64,000 nucleotides of DNA. It comes from Liolophura sinensis (Eukaryota; Mollusca; Polyplacophora; Chitonida; Chitonidae). The stretch covers positions 4,898,001 through 4,962,000 of the forward strand of contig NC_088304.1 in the NCBI RefSeq assembly GCF_032854445.1. Direction: 5' to 3'. The notes beneath the pieces are model-generated. The model worked only from the letters and a program-made list of their open reading frames with translations, had not been told where the DNA came from and made no database searches. Made by a program: the position numbers and the translations under genes. This document shows positions 6,801 through 61,500 of this stretch, piece by piece (position 1 is the first letter of the stretch; each line of letters begins with the position of its first letter).

Positions 6801-6957
6801 ACCAAACCCAAGAAGATAATTCCAAAGCTCTTTCCTTTATTTCGTTACTGAGTTAATGGGTGTTAACTCAGTAACACATTGCATATCAAGAACAAAACAA
6901 TAGAGGCATTTGAATGTTTAAAGAATCCTGGTGATTAATGACTAATTATGACCTTTA

Positions 6958-6991
<34 letters not shown>

Positions 6992-25301: not shown

Positions 25302-25700
25302 TAGAGTAATACATTATTACATTATTATTATTGGTAACTGTCACAAAGTCTGAGATTATTGGTGTAAAATATAGCCAAAATAATGAAAAATGAAAATTGT
25401 TCCACTGGCCGTACCAATATACCAAAAGCCTTTGACGAGAAAAAAGGGAATCAAGTGCCAAAGGCCTTACATAATGTAGGCGTATAGCCTACCTGCCATT
25501 TGTTTTTGAATAGCTATAAGAATCAGTCTCAAATTCAAATCATACAATAATTACGCTCACCAATAAAATGGTACGGAGCTTTCGAGGTTAAATTGGTGTG
25601 TCGGCAAGTCCCTGTTTCATCACTGGGATCAGTCAAAATAGGACGTCATAACAAGTTGGAGTCCGTTTAAATGTATTATTGCTGAAACAAAGTCACCTAC

Positions 25701-25850
25701 CTGTTCGTCACTTAGTTTTCTCTGCCTTAATGAAGCAATCTGTAGATCTGTTCCCTGTTTTATTGTCGACTGCTCCCGTGCAAGTTTCTTTTCGCGTCTT
25801 CTTGCCCGCACGGCTCCCTAGCAACGTAGGTTGCTACAACAGTTGATCCC
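25701..25850 (-). other. TEKT1: Probable non-coding first exon of TEKT1
   Basis: The minus strand reads GACGAACAG followed by the strong donor GTAGGTGAC (donor at 25700-25695). It pairs with the acceptor TTCCTTTCAG just before 25050, where exon 2 begins 20 bp ahead of the ATG. No ATG occurs in this exon in a useful frame. The 5' limit is only approximate. Confidence 0.6.
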
Positions 25851-26176: not shown

Positions 26177-29100
26177 ATGAGTGACAGGAAAGAGTTCCGA
26201 AGTCCGTTCTTTCGGCCCACAGCAAATCAAATGGCAGCAGTGACAAGCGAGAAGACGTCCACGTTTTCTTTTCTACCGTCTCAAAAGACTCTCAAAGGAA
26301 TCTTAGCCGGTAAGTGTTTCAGATTGTTTTGGATTTGTTTGTGTCGACACCTGTCGTAGTGAAGGAATGGCAGGGCGTTTAGTTAGCTGCTTGCGGATGT
26401 ATAAGCCTATCCCGGGTATACGGGTCAACGAGTCTGCAGTCATTTGGGGTTAGACATGCTGTAACCTTACGTTATGGACTTGTTATTGACATGTCAAGAA
26501 ACTTAACTTTATGATGTTGGTTTCATAATAGGGTCGATATTGGATTTTGAATAGGGCAGATCCGCTGGACAGATATTTTAGTATTTGTGAAATGCTTCAT
26601 AAGAACTTCAACATCTGAAGTTTTGATGAATGAAGCTATACACTGAATTTAAAAAAGACCCCCAATGAACCAGTGGTATTGTATAGAATGACAAATACCC
26701 GATACTCTTGGTATAAATCCTGCACATCCCTCAGAGTATTATTCAGCTCAGGATTTATAGGCTAATAATAAATAATAATGCATTGGACTAAAACAAAAAC
26801 AGAATCTCAGGCTGTATATCCTGGCTGTTTCATTAATAACACATATGAAGTCAGATGATAGGTGAGTGGTGGACACATCAGTGAGACATCAGTAAGAAAT
26901 TTGTAACTTGAAACCTTATCACATTAACAACTAGCATGTATTGACTTTCATACAATGGATATACCCCCTTACTTCTTACTGCATGTGGCAGTCACGAAAC
27001 CTGTTAATAGCTATCATGAAAATAAAATGTGAAAAAATTATGATAAATACTGATAGTCTATTATACAGCCTACATCTTAAGATGGAGCAACCTTTATTTA
27101 TTCGTTTGACAAGACCCCAAACAATCTGTTACTGTTCCCATGATCTACCCAAATAATCTAACATTCATATGGCCCACCCCTAACAATCACCATTCATGTG
27201 GCCCACCCTAACATTCACCATTCATATGGCCCACCCTAACATTCACCATTCATATGGCCCACCCTAACATTCATCATTCATATGGCCCACCCTAACATTC
27301 ACCATTCATATGGCCCACCCTAACATTTTCCCTCCCAAACAGTGACCATTCATGTGGCTCACCCTAACATTCACCATTCATATGGCTCACCCTAACATTC
27401 ACCATTCATATGGCTCACCCTAACATTCGCTGCTTACCCAAACATTCAACGTTTATGTGACCACCCTAATATTCACCATTTATATGACCCATCCAAACAG
27501 GCTACCATTCCCATGGCCCACCCAAACATTCGCCATTCATATGGCCCACCCTAACATTCACCATTCATATGGCTCACCCTAACATTCACCATTCATATTT
27601 CCCACCCAAACAGTGACCATTCATGTGGCCCACCCTAACATTCACCATTCATATGGCTCACCCTAACATTCACCATTCATATTTCCCACCCAAACAGTGA
27701 CCATTCATGTGGCCCACCCTAACATTCACCATTCATGTGGCTCACCCTAACATTCATCATTCATATTTCCCACCCAAACATTCACCATTCATGTGGCCCA
27801 CCCAAACATTCGCCTCTCATATGGCTCACCCTAACATTCACCATTTATATGGTTTACCCGTACAGACTGCAATTCCCATGGCCCATTCAGACAGACTACC
27901 ATTCCCACGGCCAACCCAAGTATTCACCATTCATATGGCTCAACCCAACATTCACCATTCATATGGCACACCCAAATAGGCTGCCATTCCCATGGTGCAC
28001 CCAAATATTCACCATTCATATGGCTCACCCAAACATTCACCTTTCATATGGCTCACCCTAACATTCACCATTTGTATGGTTTACCCGTACAGACTGCAAT
28101 TCCCATGGCCCATTCAGACAGACTACCATTCCCACGGCCAACCCAAATATTCACCATTCATATGGCTCACCCTAACAATCACCATTCCTGTGGCCCTCCC
28201 AAACATTCACCATTCATATGGCACACCCAAACAGGCTGCCATACCCAAAGCGAACCCAAACATTCACCATTCATATGGCTCAACCTAACATTCACCATTC
28301 ATATGGCTCACCCTAACATTAACCATTCATATGGCACACCCAAATAGGCTGCCATTCCAGTGGCCCTCCCAAACATTCACTATTCATATGGCTTATCCAT
28401 ACAGACTGCCATTCCCATGGCCAATTCAAATAGACTACCATTCCCATGGCTCACGCGAATATTCACCATTCATATTGTCCACCCAATCATTCACCATTCA
28501 TATGGCACGTCCTCCTAATTCACCAGTCTTCTGGCCTGCCTTCCTAATTCAGTTCCATGGCCCACTCCTAATTCAGTTTACCAGTCAGATGACCCACTCC
28601 TGATTCACCACTCTCATAGACCACCCTCTGAATTCACCAGCCAGATGGCTTGACTATCTAATTCAACAATCTCCTAATTAACCAGTCTCATGGCCTACCC
28701 GTCTCTTTCATTTGTCAAATGGCCCACCCACTTAATTCCCCAGCCTCGTGGCCCACCCACTTAATTCCCCAGTCTCCTGGCCTAACCACTTAATTCTCCA
28801 GTCTCCTTGCCCACCCACTTAATTCCCCAGTCTCCTGGCCTAACCACTTAATTCTCCAGTCTCGTGGCCCTTCCTCTTAATTCCCCAGACTCGTGGCCCA
28901 CCCTCTTAATTCCTCAGTCTCATGGCCCACCCACTTAATTCCTCAGTCTCGTGGCCCACTAAATTCACTATTACCATGAATCTTAAATCACCAGTTTAAT
29001 GGTCAGCTCCTAGTTTATTGTTCAAGTGACCCATCCACCTAATTCACTGGTCAAATGACCTGTCCACCAGTCACATGGTCCATGCACATGTAAACTGATT

Positions 29101-32100
29101 GGCAGTAAAATACCACCTACTGCTTCCATGTTCCCATGTTGTTATAACTGACAATACCAATGGTTCCAATGCAGGTCCTCGAGGAGTGTTTGACACAGTG
29201 TTTACTACACACTGGGTATTTTGTTGTTCTCCGAGCTGTCATGGATGTAGGCATGTAACCTATAAACATACATTATGTAGGCAAATCTTTCGTCAGTGAT
29301 TGTTTACACAGAAATAGAACAGTGTGCAGGAGACATGCTTCATTACATATCACACAGCTATTATTGGAAACGCTTCAGTAGAACAGAAAGATCATCCAAA
29401 CAAATGTTACAAAAGCCACTCTCCTGCTCAAGATTTACTCATGTTCAAGTTTATAATAGTCATAACATGACTATATAATGACATGACTATAGTCATAACA
29501 TGACTATTATATAAAGTATAGATATAATATACATGTTATAATATAGTTATAATATACATGTTTTCATAATTGCTTACACAACGTTCTCTTAGTTAAAGGC
29601 TACATGGAACGCTTGTGTTTTTATTTCTTAATACTTCTCAATATATGATGTGGCCTAACATATAAAACTACACATTGTTTATCAGCTTTCTTTTTGAGGC
29701 ATAAAAATATATCTAAAGAACAGTTTTTGCAAGTCCACAGCGGTCAGTTCGGAAATCAAGTAGGAAGCTGTGGTGACGTCAATAGTGATAGCTGTTAAAA
29801 CAAGTTTGTAATATGGACAGCCTAAATAGGGTTCCCAGTATAGTGTAGTGTTCATCGATGACTTTATTTCCGAATATTTCCAACCTGTGGTGGAAAATAT
29901 GCATAATATAGTGGTGCTATTAAAAAATATAAAATATGCCTCAAAAATGACCATTTTTTTTACACTTACTTGTCTTTTCTTTAAAACCACACTCATTTTA
30001 CAGTACCTTTTTATGTATCCTTTAATGTATGGATGAGACCCTCACTGATGAAGGGGTTTACTGTGAATGCCTCCATTAGGATCACAAAATGTTTGCCAGT
30101 GAGGTTTCACTATTGAATTCAGGCTCTGCTTATTTGACTCGGGCACTGTTTCAGGAACTAACAGGCAAAATGTTGTTGTCTGCAAACAAAAATGTGTTAG
30201 TGAAGTATTCTGTAAAACATCATTAAATGGGAAAAAAATAAGATTTAAATAGTTATGAACATAAAAGTTAGTCAGTAATGTGATGGTTTGATGCCAACCT
30301 GGGATTAAAAGTGGTCAATAATGATTTTCGTATTGATTTATATATAATGATTCTTTTCATTACTTACAGTACATTTGGTATTCACTTCAGTTAAAAGTCA
30401 GATAAACTGCTGCCAAAAATGCTGTAAATAAACAAATAAATGTTATATGAAACAACAAGTGAAAAATTAATCTATTGAACATGTTAACAAGGAAGATGTT
30501 TGTAAGAAAAAACGTTTGTAAGTCAGTGAAGGGAGGCTATTATACATGGAAGAGTTTACCCTAATCCCTCAACTTTTTCGCATAAGAATGAACAACTTTG
30601 AGTGCAGTTTATGCTCCTTTGTAATTTGATTTTGGGGACAAAACAACATTAGTTGGATTGGTCAGATTCAGAGCTTCACAAAAAGAATAAATTTATCAGT
30701 CAACAAAGATACCTTCAGAATATGCTTGAATAATCACCTTGCAAACATGGTTATAGACTTACAGTATACTGTTTTTTGAACTTACATTGTAATAACATGT
30801 GGGTGGAAGTTGATATTGCATGTATGAACAGATGTGACATGCACTTCTGTCACATACCTGCTACTGTTTGCATTGCACAGGTGTTTTGCACATGGGAAAC
30901 TGGTCCTTTATCAATTAACTGAATTGCCACATGTAGGCAGTTGGAAAAAATGTTGTTTTGATTTGGCTTCACCAACATGTAACACCTGGCTGTGGAGTAG
31001 ATGTTGCACTGATTGTACATGGAAGCTCTAGAGACCTGGGATGGCTGTGTAAATATCAGTCTCCCTCAAAACAGAAGTACCTGGATATGTCTAAAGGTCA
31101 TGACCTTCAAGGTCACAGGTGCAGGTTAAATAAGGTCAACTTGATCTGGGCTGGAAGTTGTAGACCTAGCACACTTAGTCCACATGAGTGAAGTTTTCCA
31201 CAAAGTAATGAAGATTGTTTTTTTAGTTTTATTACAGATTCAAATGTGTGGCAGAACAGATGTTTGTTTCTGAATTTTTTAGCAGGCAAGATGTGTGTTT
31301 CAGTCTTAAGCTGAGACTATTAATAAACAAGAGTTCTGTTTCCTAGCTAAATGACCTAAAATTTTGCACTCGAAAGTGCATTTTTAGAGGCGAATAACTG
31401 TATCAAAATACTATTTCTGATGCTGAAACCTACAATTTTCTAGTAGAATGTCATCCCATGTTCCAAGCATACCTCAAAAGACCTTTCTAAAGTCAGAAGA
31501 ACTCCCAGTCAGAAAAAAAGGGTAGTTTAGTCATGGATGAGATTTATGGTCATTTAAAGTATTCTCGGGGCCTTCCAACAATAAATAAACAACTATTAAT
31601 AAACAAAATTTCTGTTTTCCCGCTATTCTGGGACCTGACAGAAGTAAGTGGTTGGCCTTAATTGGTGTTGAAGTTATCTTATATGAAGTTTTGTAGAGAT
31701 TATTTGTCTTGTACCAGGATGAAACACATTCACTAAACTTCCTGTCCTACAAGTGTACTGGGAAATAATTTTTACAATTAGTGTGTTTGTGACGTGCCTA
31801 CCAGGCAGGGGATTTGAACCAGCGATCTCTGGGTTTAGAGTCCATGCTTCTACCACTAAGCTAAAGGCAATTTTCTCCAGCCTGGAGGTAGATAGCACCT
31901 GTCACATTCACCCAAGTTTTCTTAGTCACATTCTCTTAGCTACACAGGAAGGGAGAGACAAATACACACAGAGTCCACCAAAGCATCACAGCCTTTTGCA
32001 TAAGCCACCTCAGCAACCCGGCTCGCAGTGCCAAGGGTGACAAGGCCTACCAGCTAGGGATTTGAACCAGCGATCTCTCGGTTTGGAGTCAATGTTTCTT

Positions 32101-35100
32101 CTGCCCCGGAGATAGATAGCGCATATATATCACCCTGTTACATTTTTAAAACACAAGCAAATTAATCAGACACCAAATCAAGATTTCCCAAACAGACTTT
32201 TATCTCAGACATCAACTGTTAACAACCTTCATATTGATCAGCACTACCCAAATTATTATAAAAACAATTTTACACTGGTGGGCTGTCATGCTTGGAACAG
32301 TTTAGAATGTGGAATCAAAACAGCACCACCACTTTCTGCTTTAAGGTCATGATATGTGAAAAATTATTTCAACCAGTAAATTGCAACACGTCCTGCATTT
32401 ATTGAAGAATTCAGCTGATACACAGTGTATGTAGTGATGTATTTAATACTGACTATTTTTATGTTTTAAAAAATTGTATATTCTGAACATTTCTTCTTAT
32501 TCACATATTGTTAGAGAGGCCTTGTGGGAAAAATTTTTGACAGAGTTACCCCTCTTTAACTAAACATTTCATTCATTCACTCATTCATTTCTTAGGTGAA
32601 TATCATATTCATAATTCCAAAGTTCCAAATAAGTACTGTGTTCTTTCTCAACCATGATACAAGACAAAGACTTCAACAAGACAAATGGGCACCCACTGGT
32701 TAAACTACTAACAAGATGGTAACAATGTTGAATCTTTTCAAAAGGTAGAAAAAGGGGCACCAGTATTATGATTTACACAAGTAGCTGTAAATCTAATCCT
32801 AAGGTAAATAAGAAAGATGTTTATTGATTAATACAAAAGACTATTACCTACATGTGCTTACTTGTATGTCGTTAAATATGTGCATATAGTATTGTCATAT
32901 ACACAGTATGTCTCCAAAGTTGACAAGCGACCATATACAGGCTTGATATATATTGATAGATTTATATGTATATTGCTGCCCTCCTAAACATAATTGTATT
33001 ATATTAACACCTGGATAAATAGAATTCTGATTCAACAGGTAACCCGACTTAACTGATAACTGGTGAAATTGAAAGATAGCACTTCAGATGTAATGGTACC
33101 AGATTCAACAGGTAACTGATAACTGGTGAAATTGAAAGATAGCTCTTCAGATGTAATGGTACCAGTTCAGTAAATCCTCTAATTATGGAAATCGGACGAA
33201 GTACAGGTAGTTAGTCACGAAGGTTTTGTGAGATCACATTTGTGAATGGCTACCTTTGTCGATACCCTCTTCCACTGTTTTGCATCTGTTGTCGTAGGAA
33301 CAGCCTTTCTGCATCCATCTAGAACATCGAAATTCATTTTTTCCTGATAATGTTGGGTGCAAGGTTCTAAAAACCACAAAGTATTGAATAACCTTCTAAA
33401 ACTCACCAAGTGTTGAATTAAATCGGTCTGAAATTGAGTTTTGTCTTTACATGTGGATCTCAGAACCAAATATAGGCCTCTAAAGGGATGTGCAAAAACC
33501 TGTGATATTATAATTAATACATCTCATTAAATTAAATGTGATCAAATCTGATAATAGGGGTCTGTTATGTGAAATTGTGATGCAGCACACCATGTGTAAG
33601 GTTAATCTTCTAAATCTGGGAATTTGACGTGTTAGTTGGCTTAAGTTTTGCCTTTATCTCTTGTTCTGTCATTTTGTATGCCTGTCTGCATTACGTGGAC
33701 CTAACTGGCTAAGGCATTAATGTTGAATCGTACCCAGTTTTTACTGTATTCATCCCATCTTTAAAGCTACAGCCAACAGTTGTGTAATTATAGATGAATA
33801 TAAGATACTCATAATAGGATTTTTGTTGATTGTTGTTGATTGTTACAGTTTGCTAAATTCTCTCTAATATGTAATGTATAAACATGCCCGTTGCCTGCTC
33901 TGTGGATCTTGCATTATTCTCGAGTTAATAAAATGCTGATGTAGTATATTATTGGTCATTAGATGTAATCGGTAGATTACCATTACCATTTTAGCTATGA
34001 AAATCGGTTTATCATGGCTGCCCTGTTTTCTTCCATCCATAATCCTGATGGCGGGGCCTCCGTGGCTCAGTCGGTAAGCATGCTAGCGTAGCGTAGCGTA
34101 ATGACCCAGGAGCCTCTCACCAATGCGGTTGCTGTGAGTTCAAGTCCAGCTCATGCTGGCTTCCTCTCTGGCCGTAAGTGGGAAGGTTTGTCAGCAACCT
34201 GCGGATGGTCGTGGGTTTCCCCCGGGCTGTGCCCGGTTTCCACTCACCATAATGCTGGTCGCCGTCGTATAAGTGAAATATTCTTGAGTACTGCGTAAAA
34301 CACCAATCAAATAAATAAATAAATAAATAAATAATCCTGATGGCCATTGCAAGAGTGAAGCATTCTTGAGCACAGTGCTATAACACTAATCAAGTAGTTA
34401 ATTAAATTAAAAAATAGGCTGTTAATTTGGATATATTAGAATCATTTTAATACACAGAAAGGCATTGCTGAATTCTGCCGTAAAATTCTTGTGAGCATAG
34501 TATTAAACTGTAGTGTTAATAGTTACATTGTACCATCCACAGTGATGCAGAGCTAAGGCTTAATTGCCCCAATATCCGAAGGTTGATTGAAACAAAAGTG
34601 TCATGCTCATGAAGACGAGAGCAATCACATCTTCTTAATCAACTGCCAGTATGACTTCCTGTGAGCCACAAAGCCCATGTTAGTACACGCACAGAGATTT
34701 CCGGGGTGTTTAGATGTACTGTTATCGATTACCAGCTGCCAGTTTGCCATTCCCCCCCAAATTATTGATTTTCAATTTCTCCAGGCTGGCTTAAGATTTC
34801 CTCTAGGCGGGCAAATATCGAAAGGTTTTGTACTTCTCAATCAACCATGTTTCTATTCAGCAGTGAATAAATAGCCATCTCATCTGTGATGTTGACTTCT
34901 GTTTAAGTTTCACACATAGACTATTCTTGTTATGCAGAAAGTGGGGAATATGAACGACCATTTTGGTAAAATTGTGCGCTCAATATGTAGATGGTTTAAT
35001 GTGTACTCATGGTGCTTGCGGATCAGACAGCACCACTGTGCTATGAGCATAAATTAATGCAAACCTTTAAGTGCATGTACTTAACAATGTTTCAGTCATA

Positions 35101-38100
35101 GTCGTCAGGCGTGTGTACATATATTGTGTCTTCTTGTGGCAGGGCGAGTCCATGCCACCAAAGCACTGCCGCCTCTGAAGTAACATGTCGAGGACACCAG
35201 ACATGACACCCCACCCAGTCACATTATACTGACACTGGGCCAACCAGTCCTGTTTTCTTGCTCTAACCTCTCACTGCTGTGCGCCTAGCGTCTCAACAGC
35301 TGGTACCAGTTTTAAAGCCTTTGGTATGACCCGATTGGGGTTTATCCTTGGGGTCTCATGACATCTATGTGATAAAATGACTCAAGATGTCACCAAAGAA
35401 TTGCATTTTGAGAGGTAAATAAAATATCATAAGATACTACTTTTGGTGTTTAAAGATACATTTATCTGGTATGAAATCATTCTACTTTCCAAGCATACTT
35501 GAAAACACTTTTCTGTGATCAATTGAACTTTCAGAATCAAGCAGCTTAATCATGGATGAAATCTTTGGTCATTTTATACCATAGTTTTCTGACACATCAC
35601 TGGCCGATTTAGCTAATTATATGTTATTCTCACTGCTGAGAGTGGGCTCCAGACCAGTGGGGTTGCAAGTTCAAATCCATGGCCTGCATGGGGTTTTGAG
35701 TTTGAAAATTGTTAAGCTACCTGGTGATGGCCAGTCAGCTCATAATTGCATAGGTAAGTCCAGACTTAGTTTAGCCTATTCTCCTGTTAAATTACAAATT
35801 ACAAATTAAAATGCATGTAATCCAACTTTAACCTTTTGATTCTGGTAACAATTCATGTTTGATAGTTTTGGCGACATCATGGCTGCACAGAAAATGTATT
35901 TTTTCCATCCCAGTTAGAGAAAAAATAGCACCAGGTGAACATGTGAAAAGGTCAAACAAATAGGTCATGTGTCATTTTGGATTAGAAATTACCTTAGAAA
36001 TCATTGTTGAACATATTACCCGAGGGCATGAAATAAAATTAGGTGGAGATAATAAGACTTTGCATTGTATTTTAATGTAAAACGTGATATGAAGAAAATC
36101 AATCCCAGGTATAGATTGTATTTTGTCAGATGCCACAGGCAGTATTTTCATCCCTCTGTATTAAGACAGATTTTCCTGTGTGGCAGCACCAATGCATCTC
36201 ACCCCATCAACTGAGTGACCTGGTGAATAAAGCGAATGAAAGATAACCTGTGGCTAACCTATGATTTCATTAGTTGCTAGGGCTATTTGTTCTCCTGCTG
36301 TCTAATTAATTCAGCCAGTTCACCAGTTGTTTTCTTTTGCGCCTGAAGAATTTAAGGAACTTAAGGCCGGGTAATGATCGAACTGGATAATTAAGTTGTT
36401 GCCATGGCAATGGCTTCTGGGCTAGGAGTAATTTGGGTACAGTGTTCGTTCTATGTCTGGAGCCTCTCTATTCATTGCAAGGTTTTGTCTTCATACTGAA
36501 TTGTTTCTGTGTATTGTTTGAGATGTTTAATTTATCTGATTGGGATTTTGCGCTGTTTCACATGTTTGAAGCCCACAGAAAATGACGCACTGAACATCTG
36601 ATTCATTAATACCCTGCAGCCAGAGCTGGTATACTGTATTATGGGGGAAATGTGTTAAATATGCAACTACATATAAATTTGTAACTACAGTATTGATCAA
36701 AGAATTGATAAGTAGTATTAAGTGCAGAGAAAAGACTAATGTGAAGTATATGTCAGATGAAAGATCAGCAAAGAATGTCCACAAAAATATTTGGATTTTT
36801 TTATTTTTATTACAATTTTTAAATGGATTGGAAACTTTGGTTTCTATGGTAGCCTTTTCTGACCATATTGGAAACAGTAACATCACATAAGGTTTTTGGC
36901 AATTAACACAGAGACTGTTAGATTTCTTCATTCTGAATGCATACACATATAGATTTATGAATGTAATCACGGAACAGACCTTGAAACAAACTATTTCAGG
37001 CAAAAAATATGGACTTTTCATCACTGATACCTTCTGGACTCTACAGACCACCAAAGAATCTGATGCTTTAAAACCAGTTTTCTGGGTTTTTTTTTTCCAT
37101 AACAGTTGCTCATTAATGTTGGCTTTTCATTTGAAATTTGGCATCAGTTGTTTGTAAAATTTGTGTTATGGTAAAAAGAACATTAATATCAACCAAGATA
37201 ATTACACATGAGTATATTTAGGAGAATATTGTGAAAATGCCAGGTTGAAGACTTTACAGACAATACAATCTGAGGCCTAGCTGTTATTTATAAACCAAAG
37301 ATTAACAGGTCATTTAATTTTTCTATTCAGATAGCATTTTCAGATTTAATTGTAGTAGGTCTTACTCACTTTGTTGTTCACGAGGCATTACCAGGGGCCT
37401 GAGAGTGAAGAACTCGTTCTCGCTGTGTTGTTCACGAGGCTTTACCAGGGGCCTGTGAGTTAACAAGTCGTTCTCCCTGTGTTGTTCAGGTGGCATTACC
37501 AGGGGCTTGAGAGTTTACAAGTCATTCTGGCTGTGTTGTTCAGGTGGCATTACCAGGGGCTTGAGAGTTAACAAGTATCTTTACCAGGGGCCTGAGAGTT
37601 AACAAGTCGTTCTTCCTGTCTTGTTCACGAGGCCTTACCAGGTGCCTGAGAGTTAACAAGTCTTTCTCACTGTGTTGTTCAGGTGGCATTACTGATGGTC
37701 TGGAGAGTTAAAAGTGGAGAAAAATTACATAAAGCTCAGATAAAACAGTGCATAAAGTTACATGTATTTGTAAATGTGGTCTTCACATTTTTCGAAGAGG
37801 AAAAGACATTTGAAAATGATTTTTGTTTGTGTGGTATTTGGGCACTAAAATTTGACCTTTTCAGCTAACGTGTTCATCATGGATTTTTGATCATATTTAT
37901 AGTTTAATATATTCATAAATACTATAGTAATTCAGGTTAAATGCATGTGTTTCAAAATAAACAAATAAATAAATTCAAATAAATTTAATCGATATAACAT
38001 CACATCCTTATTTAAAACATGATCTTGCTAAGACAATATATACCAAGAGATGGTCCCAATACCCACCATACAAAACTTTTTTGCAATACCCAATTCTCCT

Positions 38101-41100
38101 AAAAGAAAAAATGGAATAAAAATATTAAAGACCATATTTGGAAATAAGTTTTCAAGCTGTTTCATCTGATTTAGGCATCATTTTTTTATATTCTCATTTA
38201 ACAAGTTTTACTCTTTCTGTTGTTCAGATGGCATTACGAGTGGTCTTATGAATTAACAAGTTGTTCTCGATCCATTGTTCAGATGGCATTACAGATGATC
38301 AGACATTTCAGTTCCATTATCTTTCTATTGTTCCGGTGACGTTATAGGTGGTCTTTAAAGTTCACAAGTCTTGTTCTTTCTGTTGTTCAGGTGGCTTTAA
38401 TGATGGTCAGCAGATTTTAGAAAGTTTTTCGCTTTCTGTTGTTCAGGTGGCTTTACTGGTGGTGTGAAGATTTTAACAAGTCTCTTTTTTTGTTGTTAAG
38501 GTGGCATTACCAGTGGTCTGGAGATTTTAACAAGTCTCTTTCTTTTTGTTGTTCAGGTGGCATTACGAGTGGTCTGGAGATTTTAACAAGTCTCTTTCTT
38601 TTTGTTGTTCATGTGGCATTATCAGTGGTCTGGAGATTTTAACAAGTCTCTTTCCTTTTGTTGTTCACATGGCATTACCAGTGGTCTGGAGATTTTAACA
38701 AGTCTCTTTCTTTTTGTTGTTCATGTGGCATTATCAGTGGTCTGGAGATTTTAACAAGTCTCTTTCCTTTTGTTGTTCACATGGCATTACCAGTGGTCTG
38801 GAGATTTTAACAAGTCTCTTTCTTTTTGTTGTTCATGTGGCATTACCAGTGGTCTGGAGATTTAAACAGGTCTCTTTTTTTTGTTGTTCAGGTGGCACTA
38901 CCAGTGGTCTGGAGATTTTAACAAGTCTCTTTTTTTTTTTGTTCAGGTGGCACTACCAGTGGTCTGGAGATTTTAACAAGTCTCTTTCTTTTTGTGGTTC
39001 AGGTGGCATTACCAGTGGTCTGGAGATTTTAACAAGTCTCTTTTTTTTTGTTGTTCATGTGGCATTACCAGTGGTCTGGAGATTTTAACAAGTCTCTTTC
39101 TTTTTGTGGTTCAGGTGGCATTACCGGTGGTCTGGAGATTTGTATCACCTTCCCCACAGAATATGTGAAAACACAGTTACAACTTGACGAGCGGTCAGGA
39201 GTGGAGAAGAGGTTTAAGGGGCCAATCAACTGTGTTCAGGTGACAGTACGGGAGTATGGAGTGCTGGGCTTGTACAGGGGCCTCAGTGTTCTGCTCTATG
39301 GATCCATTCCAAAGTCGGCTGTGAGGTATGTAAATAATTGTTATAAGTTATGTACATGTGAAATGTCAAGATTGCCATCACTGATAAATATGCTGTGGGG
39401 TTTGCAAATAATTGTTATAACTTATGTACAGGTGAAATGTCAAAATTGCCAGCACTGATAAGTATGCTGTGAAGTTTGCAAATAATTATTATAACTTATG
39501 TACAGGTGAAATGTCAAGATTTCCATCACTGATAAAAGTGATGTTTCATTCAGTTAAATATCACTTTTGTTATTACATTTTGATATTTTTTGTTTTTCCC
39601 AAATTGGGAACAAAAAGTTGTTTGACTTGAGCTGTGTACAATGGAACCTTTATTGAAAGGTTTCATTTGAAAAGCAAATTCAGCCTTTGTATCATGAAAG
39701 AACATGTGGTCAGTTATTGAAAAATATGTTTTTAAACATAAATTCAAGTCAGATTGAGGTTTTATATTTTTAAAAAATATATATTTTACATTTACAACTG
39801 CACAATCATGTCCTTTTGTGCCATGATACTTGATTAGGTACTGTTTATAATGTATACACATCATGACCAGCTCATCATGTGCCATGATATTTGATTAGGT
39901 ACTATTTATAATGTATACACATCATGACCAGCTCATCATGGGCCATTATATTTGATTAGGTACTATTTATAATGTATACACATCATGACCAGCTCATCAT
40001 GTGCCATGATACTTGATTAGGTACTATTTATAATGTATACACATCATGACCAGCTCATCATGCGCCATGATATTTGATTAGGTACTATTTATAATGTATA
40101 CACATCATGACCAGCTCATCATGTGCCATGATACTTGATTAGGTACTATTTATAATGTATACACATCATGACCAGCTCATCATGTGCCATGATATTTGAT
40201 TAGGTACTGTTTATAATGTATACACATCATGACCAGCTCATCATGTGCCATGATATTTGATTAGGTACTATTTATAATGTATACACATCATGACCAGCTC
40301 ATCATGTGCCATGGAAGTTTATTTACTTACTACGAAAATTGTCAGCCAGAAGATCAAATATTATTTTTGCACTTTGTCACAAAAGCTTCACTGGAGACCA
40401 ATATTCTGATGATTCATGTACTAATTGTTTTTAGATGCTGGCAATTATTGTATATCTTGTCCCTTGTTAAATTTCACGACTAGACATATGTACCTATTGG
40501 TTCTGTGCTGGCAAGGTGTATACAGCCCTAAGTCTACGTGTACATGTATTCTTTATATAACAGACCTGAAATCCAAGCTTATTTATAGATTGTTATGTAC
40601 AAAATATCCATATTAATTAATCAAAGCTTAAGCAAAGAGTTTGGTTTTTTTTTTTTTTTTTGCGTGGTCAGATTGGCAGATGTGCACATTTTCATGGGGT
40701 TTTTTTGGTGTGTGTGTATTATTTAACAGATTTGGTGCTTTTGAAGAGCTTAAAAAACGAAACCTGTCAGAAGATGGAACTTTGTCATCATCAAAAAAAT
40801 TGCTGTGTGGTTTAGGTAAGTGTGAGGCCGAAGGTAAAGAAGGGCCAATAAAGGACCATATTCTTAATTTGGGCAATCATTTGGGTTTCTTAACATGGGC
40901 TGAAATATATAAAATTGGATAAATGTGTAAATTATTAAGGAGGAATTAATAATTCACTTTATTATTAACGCAATTTCCATTATCCATTCAGTCAAAATGA
41001 ACATATTTAAACTTGTCTCATCTGACTTTTTTTGCCCTCAGGTGTGAAGTGTTACATTTTAATCGTGGAAATTACAAGCTTAAATCCATCCATTCCTGCT

Positions 41101-44076
41101 TTCCTGTAACGATAAATGATAAAAAGGCAAATGTTATTAAAGTATATAATACATGATTACAAAATGACATAACTTTTACAATGTTTTTTTTTTGCTTGAC
41201 AGGTGCTGGAGTTAGCGAGGCAATATTAGTGGTCACGCCCATGGAGACGGTTAAAGTCAAATTCATTCACGACCAGACATCAGCCAATCCAAAATTCAGA
41301 GGGTTCTTCCATGGTGTGCGGGAAATTGTAAGGCAGCAAGGTCAGTTATGCCTGCTACAATATACCGCATTTCAACTGAATTTGCATTTTGGTTTTAAAA
41401 ATGCATTTTCTGAAGCACTTAAAGGCTTTAAAATTGTGATTTTGATGCCAAGGATTACATTTTTCTGATGGGAAATTAATCAAACGTCACAAAAAACTCA
41501 TATGTGATCCTGCAAGGTGTATGAATCAATCAGAAGCAAAATGTGTCACTTGCGAAATGCTAAACTTTAGCTGAAATACAGTAGATGAGGCTGAAAGAAC
41601 AGCCTCCATCTTGTATGCTTGTAGACAAGCTACAAGCAAACTGCTAGCAAGCCACTAGCCAGCTACTAGCCTTGGAGCGTGGAACACTGATAGAATTTCC
41701 GAGTTGGTTTCTCACCATAATTTTAATTAATGTCTTTCTGCGTGTTTCAAGTGAATTTAGTGTAAAGTTGTGAGGCACAAATTGTAATTGCAGTATGGCA
41801 TGAAGGACATTATGTAGAACAGATACATTTAGGCCAACAATGATGATTCACCATACTCGGAATTTCAGACAATTTTCTTGACACAATTATAAAGTTCAAT
41901 TAATGTACATTGTATAAAGAATATACCTGTATATGTTTATAAGTTCATAAGCATTACAAGCTTGCTCATTCTGCTATATCAAAGGCTTATTAAAACTATA
42001 TATTTGAATTTTTTTAATGACATCACTCTTTTTTTTTGTTATTAATTTATCTTTTGTTCTGTTGCAGGATTCAAGGGGACATATCAGGGACTGACGCCAA
42101 CTATATTAAAGCAGGGTTCTAACCAAGCTATTCGTTTCTTTGTGGTGGAGTCGCTCAAAGATTTGTATCGTGGAGATGATATGAAGAAATCGATTCCAAC
42201 ACCTGTGGTTGGTTGTTTTGGTGCTATTGCTGGGGCTGCCTCTGTCTTTGGTAATACTCCCATAGATGTCATCAAAACTAGAATGCAGGTTTGTACAATT
42301 TTGTAAATTTGTAGCATGTCTTAAAACAAAAATTTCTAATACAAAAAAGAAAAGGACTTATAAGATTTACCAAAATTCTTGTTCCATAAAGGCGATAGTA
42401 AAACACATGTTCATCTATGCTTCAATAAGCAAGCTGGTTTTGAGCTCTGGCTGGTTTGCCTATACATCATGTTTAAGGCCAGGAGAATAATCGGGTACTT
42501 GACGAAGGGCATTGCCACTGCTTCAGGGGCCTATTGGTTAGAGCGTCCACATTGAAGTTGGGAGACATGGGATCCAACCCGGCGTCCAGTCATACCAAAG
42601 ATTTAAACAGGGGTATTTGTTAATGCCTCGCTTGGCGCTCGACACTGAGAGGTTGGAGCAAGGAAACGGGACTGGTTTGCCCGGTGTCAGTATAATGTGA
42701 CTGGGTAGGGGGTCAGGTCTGGTGTCTTTGTGGTTCATGTGCTTGTAGTTTTATTTATTTATCTACATTGTTGTTTATTTATTTATTTATTTATTTATTT
42801 GCTTGATTGGTGTTTTACGCTGTACTCAAGAATATTTCACTTATACAACGACGGCTAGCATTATGGTGAGAGGAAATCAGGTAGAGCCCAGGGGAAACCT
42901 ACGGCCATCCGCAGGTTGCTTGTGGTTTTACGTCAAGTGACATTTCTAATCAACAGATTTGTCATAAAATATGCACAACAGGAAAGCTTTGTGAAGTGTG
43001 TTGTAACAGGCAACACTGTCAGTATTCCTAACAATCTGCATAGGCGTTCTGGAGAAAGTTTGAGGAAAATATGCCAGAACATCAAATTTATTTATCATAT
43101 CCATTTGATTGGTGTTTTACGCCGTACACAAGAAAATTTCATTTAAATGACGACAACCAGCATTATGGTGTGAGGAAACTGGTAGAGCCTGAGGGAAAAA
43201 CACAACCATTAAATATACCTGAAGCAAAGAACTAACTAAGCTAATGTAACGCTGTTTTGGATTCAGGGTTTAGAGGCCTCCAAGTACAAGAACACCTTAG
43301 ACTGCGCTGTACAAATCATGAAGCACGAGGGCCCAAGAGCGTAAGTATTTGTCCAGCAGTCAAACGTAAAACATTTTGCAGTCAGTCCAGTGTACAGGCA
43401 TGTTGTTTTTTTAAACCAGTCTTGTTTAATATATCAGCTTGGGTTTCCACTGTCATCAGAGATTAGCTATTGCTTACACAGTTCATAAAGGACTTTGAAA
43501 ACTGAGAGAGGCCTGGAAAAGCATGACGCTGTGCCTGAAAAGGCCTTGAAATTAAGAACCAGCTTTTCACAGGTACACTGGGCTGATCTATAGACAGACT
43601 ATCAAGTACACAAACGCTTAGATCCTCAATTTTCTTTGTCTTTTCAGAATGACTTTTTCTGAAAGTTTTTTCAGATTGACATGTTGTAGTAAGTGTAATA
43701 AAAATACACATGTATGCCTAGTTGTTAGATTTCCTCTCCGATTGAAGTGGAGCAGGGACAGGGTGCCTCAAAGGCGCATGAATTCCTTAAGAAGCATTAG
43801 AACTTGACACTTAACATCACTTTCTGTGTTGGAACGTACATTTAAATGGTGCAAGGAAAAAAAAAATATCAATCAAAAGTTGTGATCCATATAGAAGCTC
43901 TGTGATGTTGTCAAAGACATATGACATGTTGCAATTTTTTGGTCATTTCTGTGTGTTTCAGGTTCTACAAGGGCACAGTTCCCCGTTTGAGTCGAGTCTG
44001 TTTAGATGTTGCCATAACGTTCATGATTTATGAACAATTTATGCAACTTTTCAACAAAGTATGGCCAACAGATTAG
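26177..44076 (+). CDS. SLC25A1: Mitochondrial citrate (tricarboxylate) carrier, seven exons
   Basis: Inner-membrane antiporter exporting citrate to the cytosol for acetyl-CoA supply. Exons: 26177-26309, 39115-39325, 40730-40815, 41203-41340, 42068-42288, 43267-43340, 43962-44076; phases agree and the stop is TAG. The product is 325 residues (human about 311). The three carrier signatures are intact: PTEYVK (58-63), PMETVK (156-161) and PIDVIK (254-259). Citrate carrier-type text includes [51 protein letters not shown] and [17 protein letters not shown] chose ATG 26177, preceded in frame by a stop; an internal ATG at 26231 would give 307 residues. Intron 1 spans 12.8 kb. Exon 2 is bordered by arrays made of its own splice junctions. 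Confidence 0.96.
27150..28970. repeat. About 26-28-bp tandem satellite in SLC25A1 intron 1
   Basis: Dozens of units of CATTCACCATTCATATGGC followed by CCACCCTAA. After about 28600 a related variant takes over (CTTAATTCCCCAGTCTC, GTGGCCCACCCA). Longer sub-blocks recur, for example the pieces with GTACAGACTGCAATTCCCAT at about 27855 and 28085. The frames reading HHSYGPPK are repeat artefacts. Confidence 0.92.
30558..30750. mobile_element. TIR element family D copy
   Basis: Left end ACCCTAATCCCTCAACTTTT then TCGCATA; right end CACCTTGCAAACATGG, matching the ends of 53489-53700 in inverse orientation. Located in SLC25A1 intron 1. Confidence 0.55.
31349..31555. mobile_element. TIR element family E copy
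   Basis: Left AAATGACCTAAA and right TTTATGGTCATTT are inverted ends. Internal pieces (AGTGCATTTTTA, CCAAGCATACCTCAAAA, TAGTCATGGATGAGAT) recur at 35375-35575 and 58503-58706. Confidence 0.65.
31797..31910 (-). mobile_element. tRNA-derived SINE family C copy
   Basis: The minus strand has box A-like TAGCTTAGTGGTAGAAGC and box B-like GGTTCAAATCC, spaced as in tRNA promoters. It is followed within 150 bp by another copy. Confidence 0.65.
32040..32140 (-). mobile_element. tRNA-derived SINE family C copy, damaged
   Basis: Same minus-strand order as 31797-31910 (GGTTCAAATCCCTAGCTGG; GATCGCTGG) but with the box A region eroded. The body part reads GATAGATAGCGC on the plus strand. Confidence 0.55.
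34053..34332 (+). mobile_element. V-SINE (RUDI-like), full length with perfect target duplication
   Basis: AATCCTGATGGC flanks the element at 34041-34052 and 34333-34344. The head GGGGCCTCCGTGGCTCAGTC carries box A TGGCTCAGTCGG and box B GAGTTCAAGTCC. The central domain and the TAAGTGAAATATTCTTGAG tail follow, ending in (AAAT)n. Polymerase III transcription with LINE-mediated insertion is the established mode for such SINEs. This is the best-preserved copy here. Located in SLC25A1 intron 1. Confidence 0.88.
35118..35345 (-). mobile_element. SINE family B copy
   Basis: On the minus strand: CCCAGTGTCAGTATAATGTG, ACTGGGTGGGGTGTCATG, TCTGGTGTCC and GGCGGCAGTGCTTTGG, in the same order as at 50720-50943. 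The 3' tail is missing. Confidence 0.6.
35375..35575. mobile_element. TIR element family E copy
   Basis: Inverted ends AAAATGACTCAA and TTTGGTCATTTT, with internal text parallel to 31349-31555. Located in SLC25A1 intron 1. Confidence 0.6.
36840..37085. repeat. Interspersed repeat family G, copy 2
   Basis: Plus strand contains AAAAAATATGGACTTTTCA, ATCACTGATACC, ACAGACCACCA and GAATCTGATG, the reverse-complement counterpart of 13788-13990. Type unknown. Confidence 0.45.
37367..39114 (+). repeat. 55-56-bp array made from the SLC25A1 exon 2 acceptor plus 27 nt of exon 2
   Basis: About 22 units precede the real exon 2: six old, diverged ones at 37367-37710 and about 16 at 38220-39114, separated by about 500 bp of other sequence. 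A unit is a T-rich tract, GTTGTTCAG, then GTGGCATTACCAGTGGTCTG and GAGATTT as in exon 2, then TTAACAAGTCTC. The exon itself has GGTGG where most copies have AGTGG. The acceptor AG is kept in some units (38557, 38892, 38947, 39003) and lost in others (CAT or CAC). Pairs of CAT and CAC units alternate at 38610-38832, a dimeric sub-repeat. Confidence 0.93.
39318..39540 (+). repeat. 74-bp triplication that includes the SLC25A1 exon 2 donor
   Basis: Unit 1 starts in the last 8 nt of exon 2 (GCTGTGAG, then the donor GTATGTAAATAATTG). Units 2 (39392) and 3 (39466) begin GCTGTGGG and GCTGTGAA, each followed by GTTTGCAAATAATT. Period is 74 in both cases. Only unit 1 has a consensus-like donor. Confidence 0.88.
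39830..40312. repeat. About 61-bp tandem array, eight copies
   Basis: Units contain GTGCCATGATATTTGATTAG, GTACTATTTATAATGTATAC and ACATCATGACCAGCTCATCA. Very uniform, so recent. Located in SLC25A1 intron 2; no resemblance to an exon. Confidence 0.92.
41363..41583. mobile_element. TIR element family F, copy 2
   Basis: Ends TACCGCATTTCA and TGAAATACAGTA are inverted; the right end is the exact reverse complement of the left end of 23578-23791. Internal GAAATTAATCAAACG and ATCAATCAGAAGCAAAAT are shared. It lies 22 bp after SLC25A1 exon 4. Confidence 0.62.
42515..42745 (+). mobile_element. SINE family B copy with tRNA-like head
   Basis: Head GGGGCCTATTGGTTAGAGCG and box B-like GGATCCAACCC, then the family B body (CCCGGTGTCAGTATAATGTG, ACTGGG, TCTGGTGTC). 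The tail is lost. Located in SLC25A1 intron 5. I considered a tRNA gene and rejected it because the cloverleaf is not closed. Confidence 0.65.
42768..42915 (-). mobile_element. V-SINE (RUDI-like) 3' half
   Basis: (TTTA)n, then TTGATTGGTGTTTTACGC, CTCAAGAATATTTCACTTAT and part of the central domain ending CATCCGCAGGTTGC. Located in SLC25A1 intron 5. Confidence 0.75.
43098..43212 (-). mobile_element. V-SINE (RUDI-like) 3' fragment
   Basis: TTGATTGGTGTTTTACGCCG, then CAGCATTATGGTG and AGAGCCTGAGGG, inverted. It lies 55 bp upstream of SLC25A1 exon 6. Confidence 0.65.
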
Positions 44077-48365: not shown

Positions 48366-50031
48366 TAATATTAGACAGTTATTAGGTATCCTGTCCAGGA
48401 TACAGAAATATATGATGTCAGTAACCCATATATTGTGTGAGCATTTCAGCAGAGCCTTCATGAGGGCTACACGGACTTCATATGTTTCCGTATATTATCA
48501 CAGAGAAATCGCATAACAAATTTATCTTCCAAAAAGCCCATTGATTCAGCACAGACAGTTGATGTACATTTAATGTCGTCATTGTGTTCACAGGATACAG
48601 GAGTATACACGTCCCCCATGTGACCGTTGCTGTCCAATGAAAACCCGAGTATTTTGTCTGATGCACATTGTGTCAATAGACAATGTGTCTGCATCCGAAA
48701 TGTAGTTGATCATAAAGATGCTAGCTGTCTGCTGCACATGTTAGAGTGATTTCAATGAGTTTACATGACTTTTCCATCTCAAGCACTCGCAGTATCTCTA
48801 CTTGTTCACCATATTTATCCTTCCAGTGTAACAAGGGTGAGGGTACACAAGCATTTTCCTTGCAGACTTAAATTATTCTACATGTAAGCAGCTAGCCATA
48901 CTTGAAACAGAAGATGTCAATTTTCGGTTCAGTAACGGCTAGAATTCCATATCTGAGGGTAGTGCCAGTCTCTCTTTTGTAACAAGAAGGCTTGTAAATG
49001 CATTGAAAGGTTTCACAGGAAGAAGTTTGGAAGAAGCTGGCTAGAATTGTGTTCGTTATTGTTAGTTGAATGTCCTGTGCTTAAATAACATTACCACAGA
49101 TTAACTCATAACCATTCCACAAATATTAACAAATTTGGTATCTTTCTCTTTTCTACAAAAGTATTGAATGTAATGCTCAACTTTCTCCAATCTTATGATA
49201 TTTGTTCTTCATGTGATCTTGAACTGACTATATTACTGACTCGTACTGACTTAGAGAATAGTACAGCACTGTTAATGTGTCTTTGATTAGAGCTAGAATA
49301 TGTCTCACTGTTGTTTATTTCTACCTGTCAAGTAACAGCATTAATGTGGGGGCCATTTTTGACTTGTATTTTTGCATGTGTAATGTATATAATGTATTTA
49401 GGATAAAAATTTGACTTATTTACCCTAATTCTTCACCCTTTTCAACCTTCACTGCGACCAATATTTTGAAACATTCTGAAAGAACTATGGGGTGTACAGA
49501 AATAATCTCCACAGTTTTATGAAGTTTGCATTTTAAGTGACACAAACATTTTTGGTTTCATTTTCATGATAATTGTATGCACAATTTCCACTCAAAAAAA
49601 AAGATCTGTAGAGGTCAAAAATGTTGAAGATTCACAGTAAGTTGCTCATTTTGTCTTGTGCTGAGAGTTCTGCTCAGCTTTATAGCAAGGTTGTTTTTGG
49701 GGTTGGTTTAGCAGGCACGATTATACCCTTATGGGCAAAGTTCAGCAATAGATGTAATGTTTTTCCAACTTTTATTGGCCTCTAAAAATGAGAACAATAG
49801 GGCAAACACGTACAGTATATCTAAACGCCATTTTCAGGGATATTGAATTATTCAACCACCTATTCATTATCGTGACTGTCTCGTAACTTAATACATATCA
49901 GGATGTCTCGTTAATGGATTGTATACATGTATTTAGCTGTGGGTACAGGTATGTGTACATATTAATTACGTACATGTTATTTCACTGTGATGAAAACACC
50001 TCGTCCAGTATCTTGGTGCACTATGAAAACT

Positions 50032-50176
50032 GTACGTGGGAAGGTCTGCAGCAGCCTGCGGATGGTCGTGGGTTTCTCCCGGGCTTTGCCCGGTTTCCTC
50101 CCAGCACAATGCTGGCCGCCATCGTATAAGTGAAATATTATTGAGTACGGCGTAAAACACCAATCAAATAAATAAA
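50032..50176 (+). mobile_element. V-SINE (RUDI-like), 5'-truncated
   Basis: Begins ACGTGGGAAGGTCTGCAGCA, then the central domain, the tail (TAAGTGAAATATTATTGAG) and (AAAT)n. Confidence 0.75.
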
Positions 50177-50719
50177 TAGCTACTATCAAAACTTGTGCAG
50201 ATGTAGGCATGTTTATGAATACACAAGGTTTCTTGTCTGCTTTGTTGCAGAATTTCATTTACTGCTTTAAAGAAGACATTTACTGCTTTAAAGGTGACAG
50301 TTGTGCATGCATACACTGTTTTGTAATGAAGATTCCAAGCAAGACATTTGCTTGTATCTCTTGTCCAGCTGAAATAATAATATAAGAAAATTGTTTTATT
50401 CAGGACCTCCATCTAGAAAAGAACAGGCCAGGTGCCCAGAAGTCAAGATTAGATTGCATGTATTGATAGTCTATGATACTAATGGTAAGGGGACATATAT
50501 AGGGAAAAGGTTTGTGGTGCCAAACTCTTAGAAATTGTGATCATTATTTCTCAAAGATCTCTGCACAAGAATGAGAAACTTTAGTAATCGGTTATATAAC
50601 TGCTTAACATCGGTGCTTTGTGGCCGTGTAAAAATGTAAAACAAAGTAAATATATAGTGGATTCAATGACCAATATGCGTTTCTCCTTTGTTTTGGTTTA
50701 ATACTCTTCACAGTTTGCT

Positions 50720-58500: not shown

Positions 58501-61500
58501 TTAAATGACCTAAAATGTCAGTCAAAAAAGTGCATTCTTACAAGCAAATAAATGTCATAAAAGACCACTTTTGATGCTGAAATTTTAAATTTTATTTAGG
58601 AAAACGCAACAAGCAAACAAACCTCAAAACACCTTTCTAAGATCAACAGGTCTCTGAGAAATAGGGAAAATGTGTGACTTAGTCATACCTGAAACTTTAG
58701 GTCATTCACTGTACATGTAATTCCCCATCCCTTTATTACATTCATTGACTGCCCCCGATGACCATGTAACTTATATTCAATATTTCCTCTATGATTCTGC
58801 CATCATCAAGACTAATTGTAAAATTTTGATTTATTTTATCTGACTGGTGTTCTACGCCGTACTCAGGAATATTTTACTTACACGATGGCCGCTAGCATTA
58901 TGGTGGGAGGAAACCCCACAGACTCCAGGGGAAACAGACACCCATCATCAGGTTGTTGCCAGACCTTCCGACATACAGCCAGAGATGAAGCCAGTAAGAG
59001 CTGGACTTGAGCCTTATCATATACATCCAGCAATGAAGCCAGCCTAAGCGGCCACATTGATAACAGTTTCCTACGTCATTGTGCTGTGCTAGCACGCAGG
59101 CCCTTGCAACCAGTACATGGAGCAACAGGTAGGGGGTCCATTGCATTGAATCCTGCTTTTCTTCTCTAAACATAAGTACATGTACATGTATGCATGGATG
59201 AGCGAGTGAGTGAGTGCTTGGGGTTTAACGTCATACTTAATAATTTTTTCAGTCATATAACGATGAAGGAATCATTAGAGTGCATGGAATATGCCTCCTT
59301 GTCACAGGACGGATTTCCAAAGCTCTTTCATTTAGTGCTGCTTCAATGAGACGCTTACCGAAGGCAAGTAAGCCACCCTGCCCAAGCCATCATACTGATA
59401 CGGGTCAACCAGTCGTTGCACTACCCCCTTCATGCTGAACGCCAAGCGAGGAAGTTACAACTTCCTCTTTTAAGGGCTTAGGTGTGACTTGATCCAGGAT
59501 TGACCCTGGCTCTACCGCTCCCGAAGTGGATGTATGCATGGTTGAGAGATAGCGATGGTAGTGGTCACATACCTGTTGGCGGACAGGCCATGATCATTGC
59601 TACTGTACAACAGACTCCAGCTTTGAAACTGAGACAAATGAGCCTGAAAAATACAATTTTCAATGGAAAATAGCATCGTTTTTTGATGGTCACATGTTCA
59701 AATCTAGCTATTACTGTTTTGTATGCAGTCTTAAGTCAGACTGATTGTCAAGTGTATGATGAAGTCCAATGGCACATGCATACTCCAAGCAATTCCAATT
59801 CCTCCAATCACACAAATCATTGACATGTGCTTGATTGTTGTGTTTAATACAAATCATTTCAGTGGGGAAGCGTATATAGCCTTTAATCCCTTGAGAAGGC
59901 GCTAGGGTAAAGCAGGTCTTTGAGCCACTGTTATGTCAAAAATTGATTGTAGCATAACATCTTTAAGGAGGATTAGAGACGCGTATTGATATCTGGAAGA
60001 TCAAACCCCCACCCCCAGCTCCTGTAAGCACCTGGTGAACACCCTCCTACTGCTCTCCTAACAGGTATTCACATCACACTACAGTACTGTGGTGTGATGT
60101 GAATACCTGATACCAGACCAGAAGGCAGGGGTTCAGCAGGTGGTTATTGGAGCTAGGGGTGGAGGTTTGATCTTCCTGCTGTACTGTGGTGTTATGTGAA
60201 TACCTGATATGAGACCAGGAGGTAGGTGTTCAGCAGGTGGTTACTGGAGCTAGGGGTGGGGGTTTGATCTTCCTGCTGTACTGTGGTGTTATGTGAATAC
60301 CTGATAGGAGACCAGGAGGTAGGTGTTCAGCAGGTGGTTACAGGAGCTAGGGGTGGGGTTTGATCTTCCTGCTGTACTGTGGTGTCATGTGAATACCTGA
60401 TACCAGACCAGGAGGTAGGTGTTCAGCAGGTGGTTACTGGAGCTAGGGGTGGGGGTTTGATCTTCCTGCTGTACTGTGGTGTTATGTGAATACCTGATAG
60501 GAGACCAGGAGGTAGGTGTTCAGTAGGTGGTTATTGGAGCTAACTGTGCTGTACTGTGGTGTGATGTGAATACCTGATACCAGACCAGAAGGCAGGGGTT
60601 CAGCAGGTGGTTACTGGAGCTAGGGGTGGGGGTTTGATCTTCCTGCTGTACTGTGGTGTTATGTGAATACCTGATATGAGACCAGGAGGTAGGTATTCAG
60701 CAGGTGGTTATTGGAGCTAACTGTGCTGTACTGTGGTGTGATGTGAATACCTGATACCAGACCAGAAGGCAGGGGTTCAGCAGGTGGTTACAGGAGCTAG
60801 GGGTGGAGGTTTGATCTTCCTGCTGTACTGTGGTGTTATGTGAATACCTGATAGGAGACCAGGAGGTAGGTGTTCAGCAGGTGGTTGGTTACTGGAGCTA
60901 GGGGTGGGGGTTTGATCTTCCTGCTGTACTGTGGTGTGATGTGAATACCTGATATGAGACCAAAAGGTAGGTGTTCACCAGGTGGTTACTGGAGCTAGGG
61001 GTGGGGGTTTGATCTTCCTGCTGTACTGTGGTGTTATGTGAATACCTGATAGGAGACCAGGAGGTAGGTGTTCAGCAGGTGGTTGGTTATTGGAGCTAGG
61101 GGTGGGGGTTTGATCTTCCTGCTGTACTGTGGTGTGATGTGAATACCTGATAGGAGACCAGGAGGTAGGTGTTCAGCAGGTGGTTATTGGAGCTAGGGGT
61201 GGAGGTTTGATCTTCCTGCTGTACTGTGGTGTGATGTGAATACCTGATATGAGACCAAAAGGTAGGTGTTCAGCAGGTGGTTACTGGAGCTAGGGGTGGG
61301 GGTTTGATCTTCCTGCTGTACTGTGGTGTGATGTGAATACCTGATATGAGACCAAAAGGTAGGTGTTCACCAGGTGGTTACTGGAGCTAGGGGTGGGGGT
61401 TTGATCTTCCTGCTGTACTGTGGTGTTATGTGAATACCTGATAGGAGACCAGGAGGTAGGTATTCAGCAGGTGGTTACTGGAGCTAGGGGTGGGGGTTTG

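Follow-up and report, generated by a model that had tools for sequence, protein, structure and literature searches.

How can a gene tolerate the repeated copying of one of its own splice sites in the intron directly in front of the exon? This question is raised by a 64,000-nucleotide (nt) stretch of the genome of the chiton Liolophura sinensis (contig NC_088304.1, positions 4,898,001 to 4,962,000, forward strand; hereinafter the window). The window contains an SLC25A1-like mitochondrial carrier gene in which the acceptor of exon 2, together with the head of the exon, is repeated in tandem at the end of intron 1. This array is very likely a minisatellite of the ‘mirage' kind that expands near-neutrally on the intron side, with the innermost acceptor/donor pair remaining in use.

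The array spans positions 37353–39141 of the window and consists of 22 full decoys, i.e. copies upstream of the genuine acceptor unit, and one partial copy, arranged in two blocks (Table 1). The unit of 54–56 bp (TAACAAGTCTCTTTCTTTTTGTTGTTCAG up to the splice junction, GTGGCATTACCAGTGGTCTGGAGATTT beyond it) combines 29 nt of intron, with TTTTAAC, a pyrimidine tract and the AG, with 27 nt from the head of exon 2. The TTTTAAC motif, which we take to be branch-point-like, arises where the end of the exon head joins the start of the next unit, ~26 nt upstream of the AG, so that each unit amounts to a complete 3' splice site. The units were located by an edit-distance scan with a 35-nt unit core and by alignment to the true unit. 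The decoys lie at distances of 1–10 from this core, compared with 11 for the best place elsewhere (a further 7.7 kb of intron 1 sequence, and the window outside it), which rules out chance similarity as the origin of the array; five weak places at distances of 14–15 (37323, directly left of the array, 37757, 37823, 37858 and 38149) were excluded as chance-like. When the 14 exon ends of the gene are compared with the window using BLAST (Basic Local Alignment Search Tool), non-self matches are obtained for two only, both of them ends of exon 2. The acceptor region accounts for 19 such matches, all within 37349–39085, and 17 of these stop at exon base 27. Copies of the unit elsewhere in the window are found neither by BLAST nor by the core scan, and the exon 2 probe matches a single place in the genome. 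The original prediction for this locus, namely that the exon 2 acceptor had given rise to about 22 copies between 37367 and 39114, with a period that is not a multiple of three, is borne out, within slightly wider bounds. A coding tandem repeat or an exon duplication can be dismissed because the copies carry only 27 exonic nt and lie upstream of an intact exon.

The host gene, modeled from its sequence, has a coding sequence of 978 nt with continuous phase and AG/GT at all 12 internal splice sites. Its product matches the Pfam family Mito_carr in three stretches (E 1.3e-67, whole coding sequence), and its nearest relatives with solved structures are mitochondrial carriers, UCP1 being the top one; the name SLC25A1 is presumptive, being that of the original prediction and in keeping with the human protein. 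Exon 2 carries junction arrays at both ends, the second one at its donor, where the decoy sites read GG/GTTTGC and AA/GTTTGC versus AG/GTATGT at the true site (here and below, the slash marks the junction). As expected of a mirage, the tandem units take in an exon–intron junction of the gene they adjoin (22 full acceptor decoys, and three donor copies including the true one), the copies lie on the intron side with the coding structure intact, and the splice dinucleotides are kept in many but not all copies. The AG is present in 12 of the 22 acceptor decoys and lost from the other 10, in agreement with the claim that many had lost it, and the GT is present in both donor decoys. Further along intron 2, positions 39817–40313 hold a 61-bp array (8.1 copies, 96% match) with AG/GTACTA-like sites within it; no exon end of the SLC25A1-like gene matches this array.

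Table 1. Positions of the splice-junction arrays and of the gene that hosts the main one (coordinates refer to the window unless preceded by the name of another sampled stretch; aa, amino acids).
Feature	Position	Strand	Description
SLC25A1-like host gene	26177–44076	+	mitochondrial carrier, 7 coding exons, 325 aa, intact
Coding exons of host gene	26177–26309, 39115–39325, 40730–40815, 41203–41340, 42068–42288, 43267–43340, 43962–44076		
Exon 2 of host gene	39115–39325	+	211 nt, entry phase 1
Left, older block of acceptor array	37353–37709	+	6 full decoys of 54–55 bp; 30-bp partial copy at ~37570–37599; AG in 3/6
Spacer	37710–38199	+	490 bp, divides the two blocks
Right, fresher block of acceptor array	38200–39085	+	16 decoys of 54–56 bp; AG in 9/16
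Genuine acceptor unit (last unit)	39086–39141	+	final 29 nt of intron 1, then 27 nt of exon 2; ...TTCAG ends at 39114
Donor array of exon 2	39318–39536	+	3 x 74 bp, starting in exon 2 (final 8 nt, then the GT)
FBXO21-like exon acceptor array	6952–7856	+	7 decoy copies, units of ~111–119 bp, true acceptor at 7785; AG in 6/7
SLC13-like acceptor array	L019:7545–8180	minus	9 decoys
Mitochondrial-carrier acceptor array	L029:665–1301	minus	65-bp unit, extends past the fetched stretch
Mitochondrial-carrier donor array	L034:1–689	minus	~70 nt of exon tail in four copies; visible decoy donors G/GTGGGT

The age gradient that had been proposed, with older units on the left and fresher ones next to the exon, is confirmed by the identity to the true unit, which is 90.8–98.5% for the last 11 decoys and 70–84% (BLAST) for eight older ones, with three more of the older decoys giving no BLAST match at E 1e-3. 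The last 11 decoys are almost the same except at the acceptor dinucleotide. The right block has a two-unit (112-bp) period in which decoy U14 is identical to U16 and U15 to U17 (the numbers run towards the exon, U22 being nearest to it), which points to duplication of multi-unit blocks. U21 clusters with the true unit (82/85 support) through a common change at −7 and yet has the decoy-type A at exon position 12, which suggests that exchange breakpoints fell inside units. The founding step would have been a tandem duplication, with ends 29 nt upstream of and 27 nt into exon 2, that copied the entire 3' splice site; slippage or unequal exchange would then have amplified the unit, partly as two-unit blocks, and the older block would have decayed, with the spacer now lying between it and the fresher one. 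This spacer has no second copy in the window, bar short AAAT-rich matches. A separate, similar event presumably took place at the donor end of exon 2. When a duplication straddles a junction, the additional copies would come to lie on the intron side, and the last copy remains attached to the complete exon with its donor, which leaves the coding sequence intact.

Live decoys resemble the true site in pyrimidine content, with 14–18 pyrimidines in the 20 nt upstream, compared with 17 at the true site. Three of the four decoys nearest to the exon (U19–U21) are live, the nearest one, U22, being dead. Splicing of exon 1 to a live decoy leads in all 12 cases to a stop after 53–109 codons, so that mis-splicing should be costly; in-frame use of the array can be dismissed, given that only two of the 12 keep the frame and both still reach a stop. 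What spares the gene is probably position: of all the acceptors, the true one lies closest to the donor of exon 2, and of all the donors, the true one lies closest to the acceptor. With an intron 1 of 12.8 kb, exon definition over the 211 nt of exon 2 would favor the innermost acceptor/donor pair, the expansion would be tolerated because the innermost acceptor wins, and the decoys would be mostly ignored, with the arrays evolving near-neutrally.

Junction-spanning arrays recur in the L. sinensis genome. The SLC25A1-like array had been described as independent of FBXO21, and it is indeed separate from the array of the FBXO21-like exon, but given this recurrence the two belong to a broader set. 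A PF00153 search yielded 80 genome matches; 18 stretches containing 24 of them, some from one gene, were picked from the match list blind to their sequence. Junction arrays are found at three of the 24 sampled mitochondrial-carrier exons, at the acceptor in L029, at the donor in L034 and, marginally, at the acceptor in L023, where the array includes little exon; the remaining 21 exons have none. Another array, in L019, is hosted by an SLC13-like exon (Pfam CitMHS and Na_sulph_symp). The trypsin-exon donor in L011 does not qualify, having at most ~3 exonic nt in common with the array, and neither do the arrays in L008 and L038, which stop ~30 nt short of a junction. In the L029 unit, a 39-nt exon-head piece is enclosed between ACAG/ and, in most units, /GTGTGT, forming a ready-made micro-exon 13 codons long.

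The loss of AG from decoys had been tentatively attributed to selection against mis-splicing, with AG retention relative to neighboring positions as the yardstick. The −1 G is off consensus in nine of the 22 decoys (the fifth most variable of the 56 columns) and in six of the 16 in the right block, compared with a single change of the −2 A. The AG dinucleotide is retained at a level of 0.55, the mean being 0.76, and nine of the 55 dinucleotides, AG included, are no better retained. On trees built without the tested column and its neighbors, the −1 column takes five parsimony steps (mean 2.0), and at least five steps are seen in five of the 56 columns, this one included; when columns −2 to +2 are left out of the tree, it changes six times. 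A rough neutral simulation (block duplication, deletion and mutation, with the true unit free to vary and runs accepted at a mean difference of 2–6%) gives a given column off majority in at least five of 11 units in ~1.8–2.1% of cases, and this together with three or more letters in 0.4–0.6%, across three well-sampled settings, with some column that extreme in 22–25% of arrays; a fourth setting, with 13 accepted runs, gives lower values. Because the hypothesis was framed post hoc, the simulation result counts as weak evidence.

The other arrays largely keep their decoy sites. AG is present in six of the seven FBXO21-like decoys, the one nearest to the exon being live, in eight of the nine SLC13-like decoys, with the loss in the one adjoining the exon (CCG), and in all eight decoys of L029, the freshest array, in which 28 nt around the acceptor are invariant. 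A tenth SLC13-like place (8182), very diverged and without AG, was excluded and would make the count 8/10, and a ninth L029 decoy at the cut edge, with AG kept, is outside the totals. GT is kept in both donor decoys of SLC25A1 exon 2 and in all four of L034, the latter count resting on a reading of the four BLAST copies, given that an exact GT-containing pattern could not reveal loss. Overall, the splice dinucleotide is intact in 28 of 30 decoys across these five arrays, with a mean within-array dinucleotide identity of 0.78–0.95 (a comparison that took eight of the nine SLC13-like decoys), and a faster decay of decoy AG/GT is thus not general.

These data bear on three alternatives to near-neutral expansion. 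If selection purged decoy AGs, haplotypes with dead decoys would be favored and would spread via further duplication, in keeping with the two derived letters (T and C) at −1 in the fresh block, the truncated products of all live decoys and the death of the exon-nearest decoy both here and in the SLC13-like array; but a majority of decoys, U19–U21 included, are live, few independent mutational events are needed, the −2 A has changed in only one of the 22 decoys, and AG persists in 22 of the 24 acceptor decoys of three further arrays, as does GT in six of six donor decoys. The −1 G is the fastest fresh column, but the selection claim is not supported as a general one, with a weak hint in the SLC25A1-like array alone; purging of this kind is unlikely. 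The decoys might instead be used, yielding alternative or unproductive SLC25A1 transcripts whose level is tuned via nonsense-mediated decay, which would make sense of the dozen live decoys with pyrimidine tracts like that of the true site and of the early stops that all of them produce. However, live decoys show no conservation as a group and, according to passages in PMC3087553, amphioxus mirages do not interfere with regular splicing, which makes regulatory use distinctly improbable. Finally, tandem arrays are error-prone in assembly, and the repeat could have been collapsed or expanded, but the older units have many private differences, and the HiFi reads exceed the 1.8-kb array. Sections of PMC11068029 describe an assembly from PacBio HiFi reads with a mean of 8,347 bp, at 14X and with 1.24% heterozygosity (the species of the published chiton assembly has since been corrected to Liolophura sinensis, PMC12441733), so the array should be spanned, and an artefact is barely conceivable.

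Near-neutral expansion with use of the innermost pair is still the favored explanation, and several observations weigh against it. U21 is identical to the true site over 29 intronic and the first 11 exonic nt, with no local feature separating the two, so that the step in which the innermost site wins is reached by reasoning. Exon position 12 is A in 17 of the 22 decoys, U21 among them, and G in the true exon and the other five, which implies that the units were not simply templated again and again from the true exon. The unit tree is weakly resolved, with 14 of its 18 inner branches open and none starred. In the 11 fresh decoys, the −1 G is the most-changed column (6/11 compared with a column mean of 3.5%), and in the simulation a given column is that extreme with three or more letters in only 0.4–0.6% of cases (~0.5%).

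A narrower form of the same explanation holds that arrays seed anywhere in a genome rich in minisatellites and that a few include a junction by chance, with no link to splice sites. In a scan of the window and 100 kb on each side (264 kb; period of at least 20, Tandem Repeats Finder (TRF) score of at least 80), arrays cover 12.7% of the sequence, and 18.5% of positions 1–44076 of the window, where three of 28 tested junctions lie inside arrays (the FBXO21 junctions among them were placed by visual inspection, several of them one or two bases off, and the FBXO21 exon set is incomplete). Accordingly, junctions fall in arrays no more often than this coverage would predict, as random seeding would have it. 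On the other side, a model in which a seed is one period placed at random, with period lists entered by hand, predicts 0.46 junction-spanning seeds in positions 1–44076, compared with three observed (P ~0.01, in a window selected for this feature), and 0.93 in the mitochondrial-carrier sample, again compared with three (P 0.07, or two and P 0.24 without L023). The excess over random seeding is suggestive at most, and the odds that chance alone places these arrays are only slightly less than even. The far broader proposition, that junction-seeded arrays are over-represented genome-wide in chitons at about a tenth of exons, that exon definition by the innermost pair is generally required and that the SLC25A1 decoys are starting to die via the G of their AG, appears doubtful.

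The locus amounts to a natural experiment, with 12 live acceptors in a row upstream of one exon, five of them in a near-identical fresh block, and with one live decoy that equals the true site over 40 nt, so that position relative to the donor is almost the sole distinguishing feature. RNA sequencing data of L. sinensis exist for digestive gland, foot, gill, gonad and heart, according to PMC11068029, and could provide a direct test of the choice of the spliceosome among equal sites and of decoy purging.

Upstream of the SLC25A1-like gene, at 25632–25820 on the minus strand, lies what may be the first exon of a gene in head-to-head orientation, ~360 nt from the start codon, an arrangement that suggests a promoter in common. 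Elsewhere in the window, a 97-bp array at 60084–63449 has ~33 copies in two TRF rows and is G-rich on the plus strand (GC skew 0.34–0.40). Copies of an element resembling a short interspersed element, recognized by eye, are located at 34052–34330, 42770–42960 and 50030–50180, with AAATAAAT-rich ends, presumably of a type typical of molluscs.

How does the chiton locus compare with known systems? In bivalves, miniature inverted-repeat transposable elements (MITEs) or Helitrons contain tandem repeats, and the chiton arrays resemble these in being minisatellite-like arrays in a mollusc; unlike such dispersed mobile carriers, the chiton unit is local exon 2 sequence that is confined, within the window, to its array. 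Mirage minisatellites themselves were reportedly introduced in 2002, in the original paper on amphioxus Adh3. Intron gain through tandemly duplicated AG/GT proto-splice sites (credited in PMC3087553 to Rogers and to Gao and Lynch) similarly involves duplicated sequence that holds splice signals, but the chiton copies lie inside the existing introns 1 and 2, the splice structure of the seven exons is intact, and the gene model requires no added intron.

The closest match is to the amphioxus mirages, which are described for the globins BflGb6 and BflGb9 (PMC3087553), with PGBD5 and troponin C also mentioned (PMC3902484). Their units range from 10–72 bp in Adh3 to ~160 bp in the globins, and many, though not all, copies have AG/GT (portions of PMC3087553 and PMC3902484); in the former, the anatomy is alike at both junction types, and reverse transcription PCR is said to suggest regular splicing. 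The chiton array likewise keeps AG/GT in many but not all copies. It differs in its host, a mollusc rather than a cephalochordate, in that arrays flank one exon on both sides, in its size, with 22 decoys compared with the six and three units in two haplotypes of BflGb6 (as given in PMC3087553 passages), and in that it is known from the sequence of one assembly, whereas the amphioxus mirages come with splicing data. Among open-licence papers (titles and starts of abstracts, one listing comprising the best 20 of 95), no case of minisatellite mirages is listed outside amphioxus, and none in a mollusc; in two chiton genome papers, the words ‘tandem' and ‘intron' are absent from PMC11068029 and have one unrelated use each in PMC12005716. 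The kind is thus already known from amphioxus, though little studied, and what is new is a large (22-copy) member in a mollusc; the repeated chiton cases would indicate that splice junctions come to be amplified in tandem in distantly related animals.

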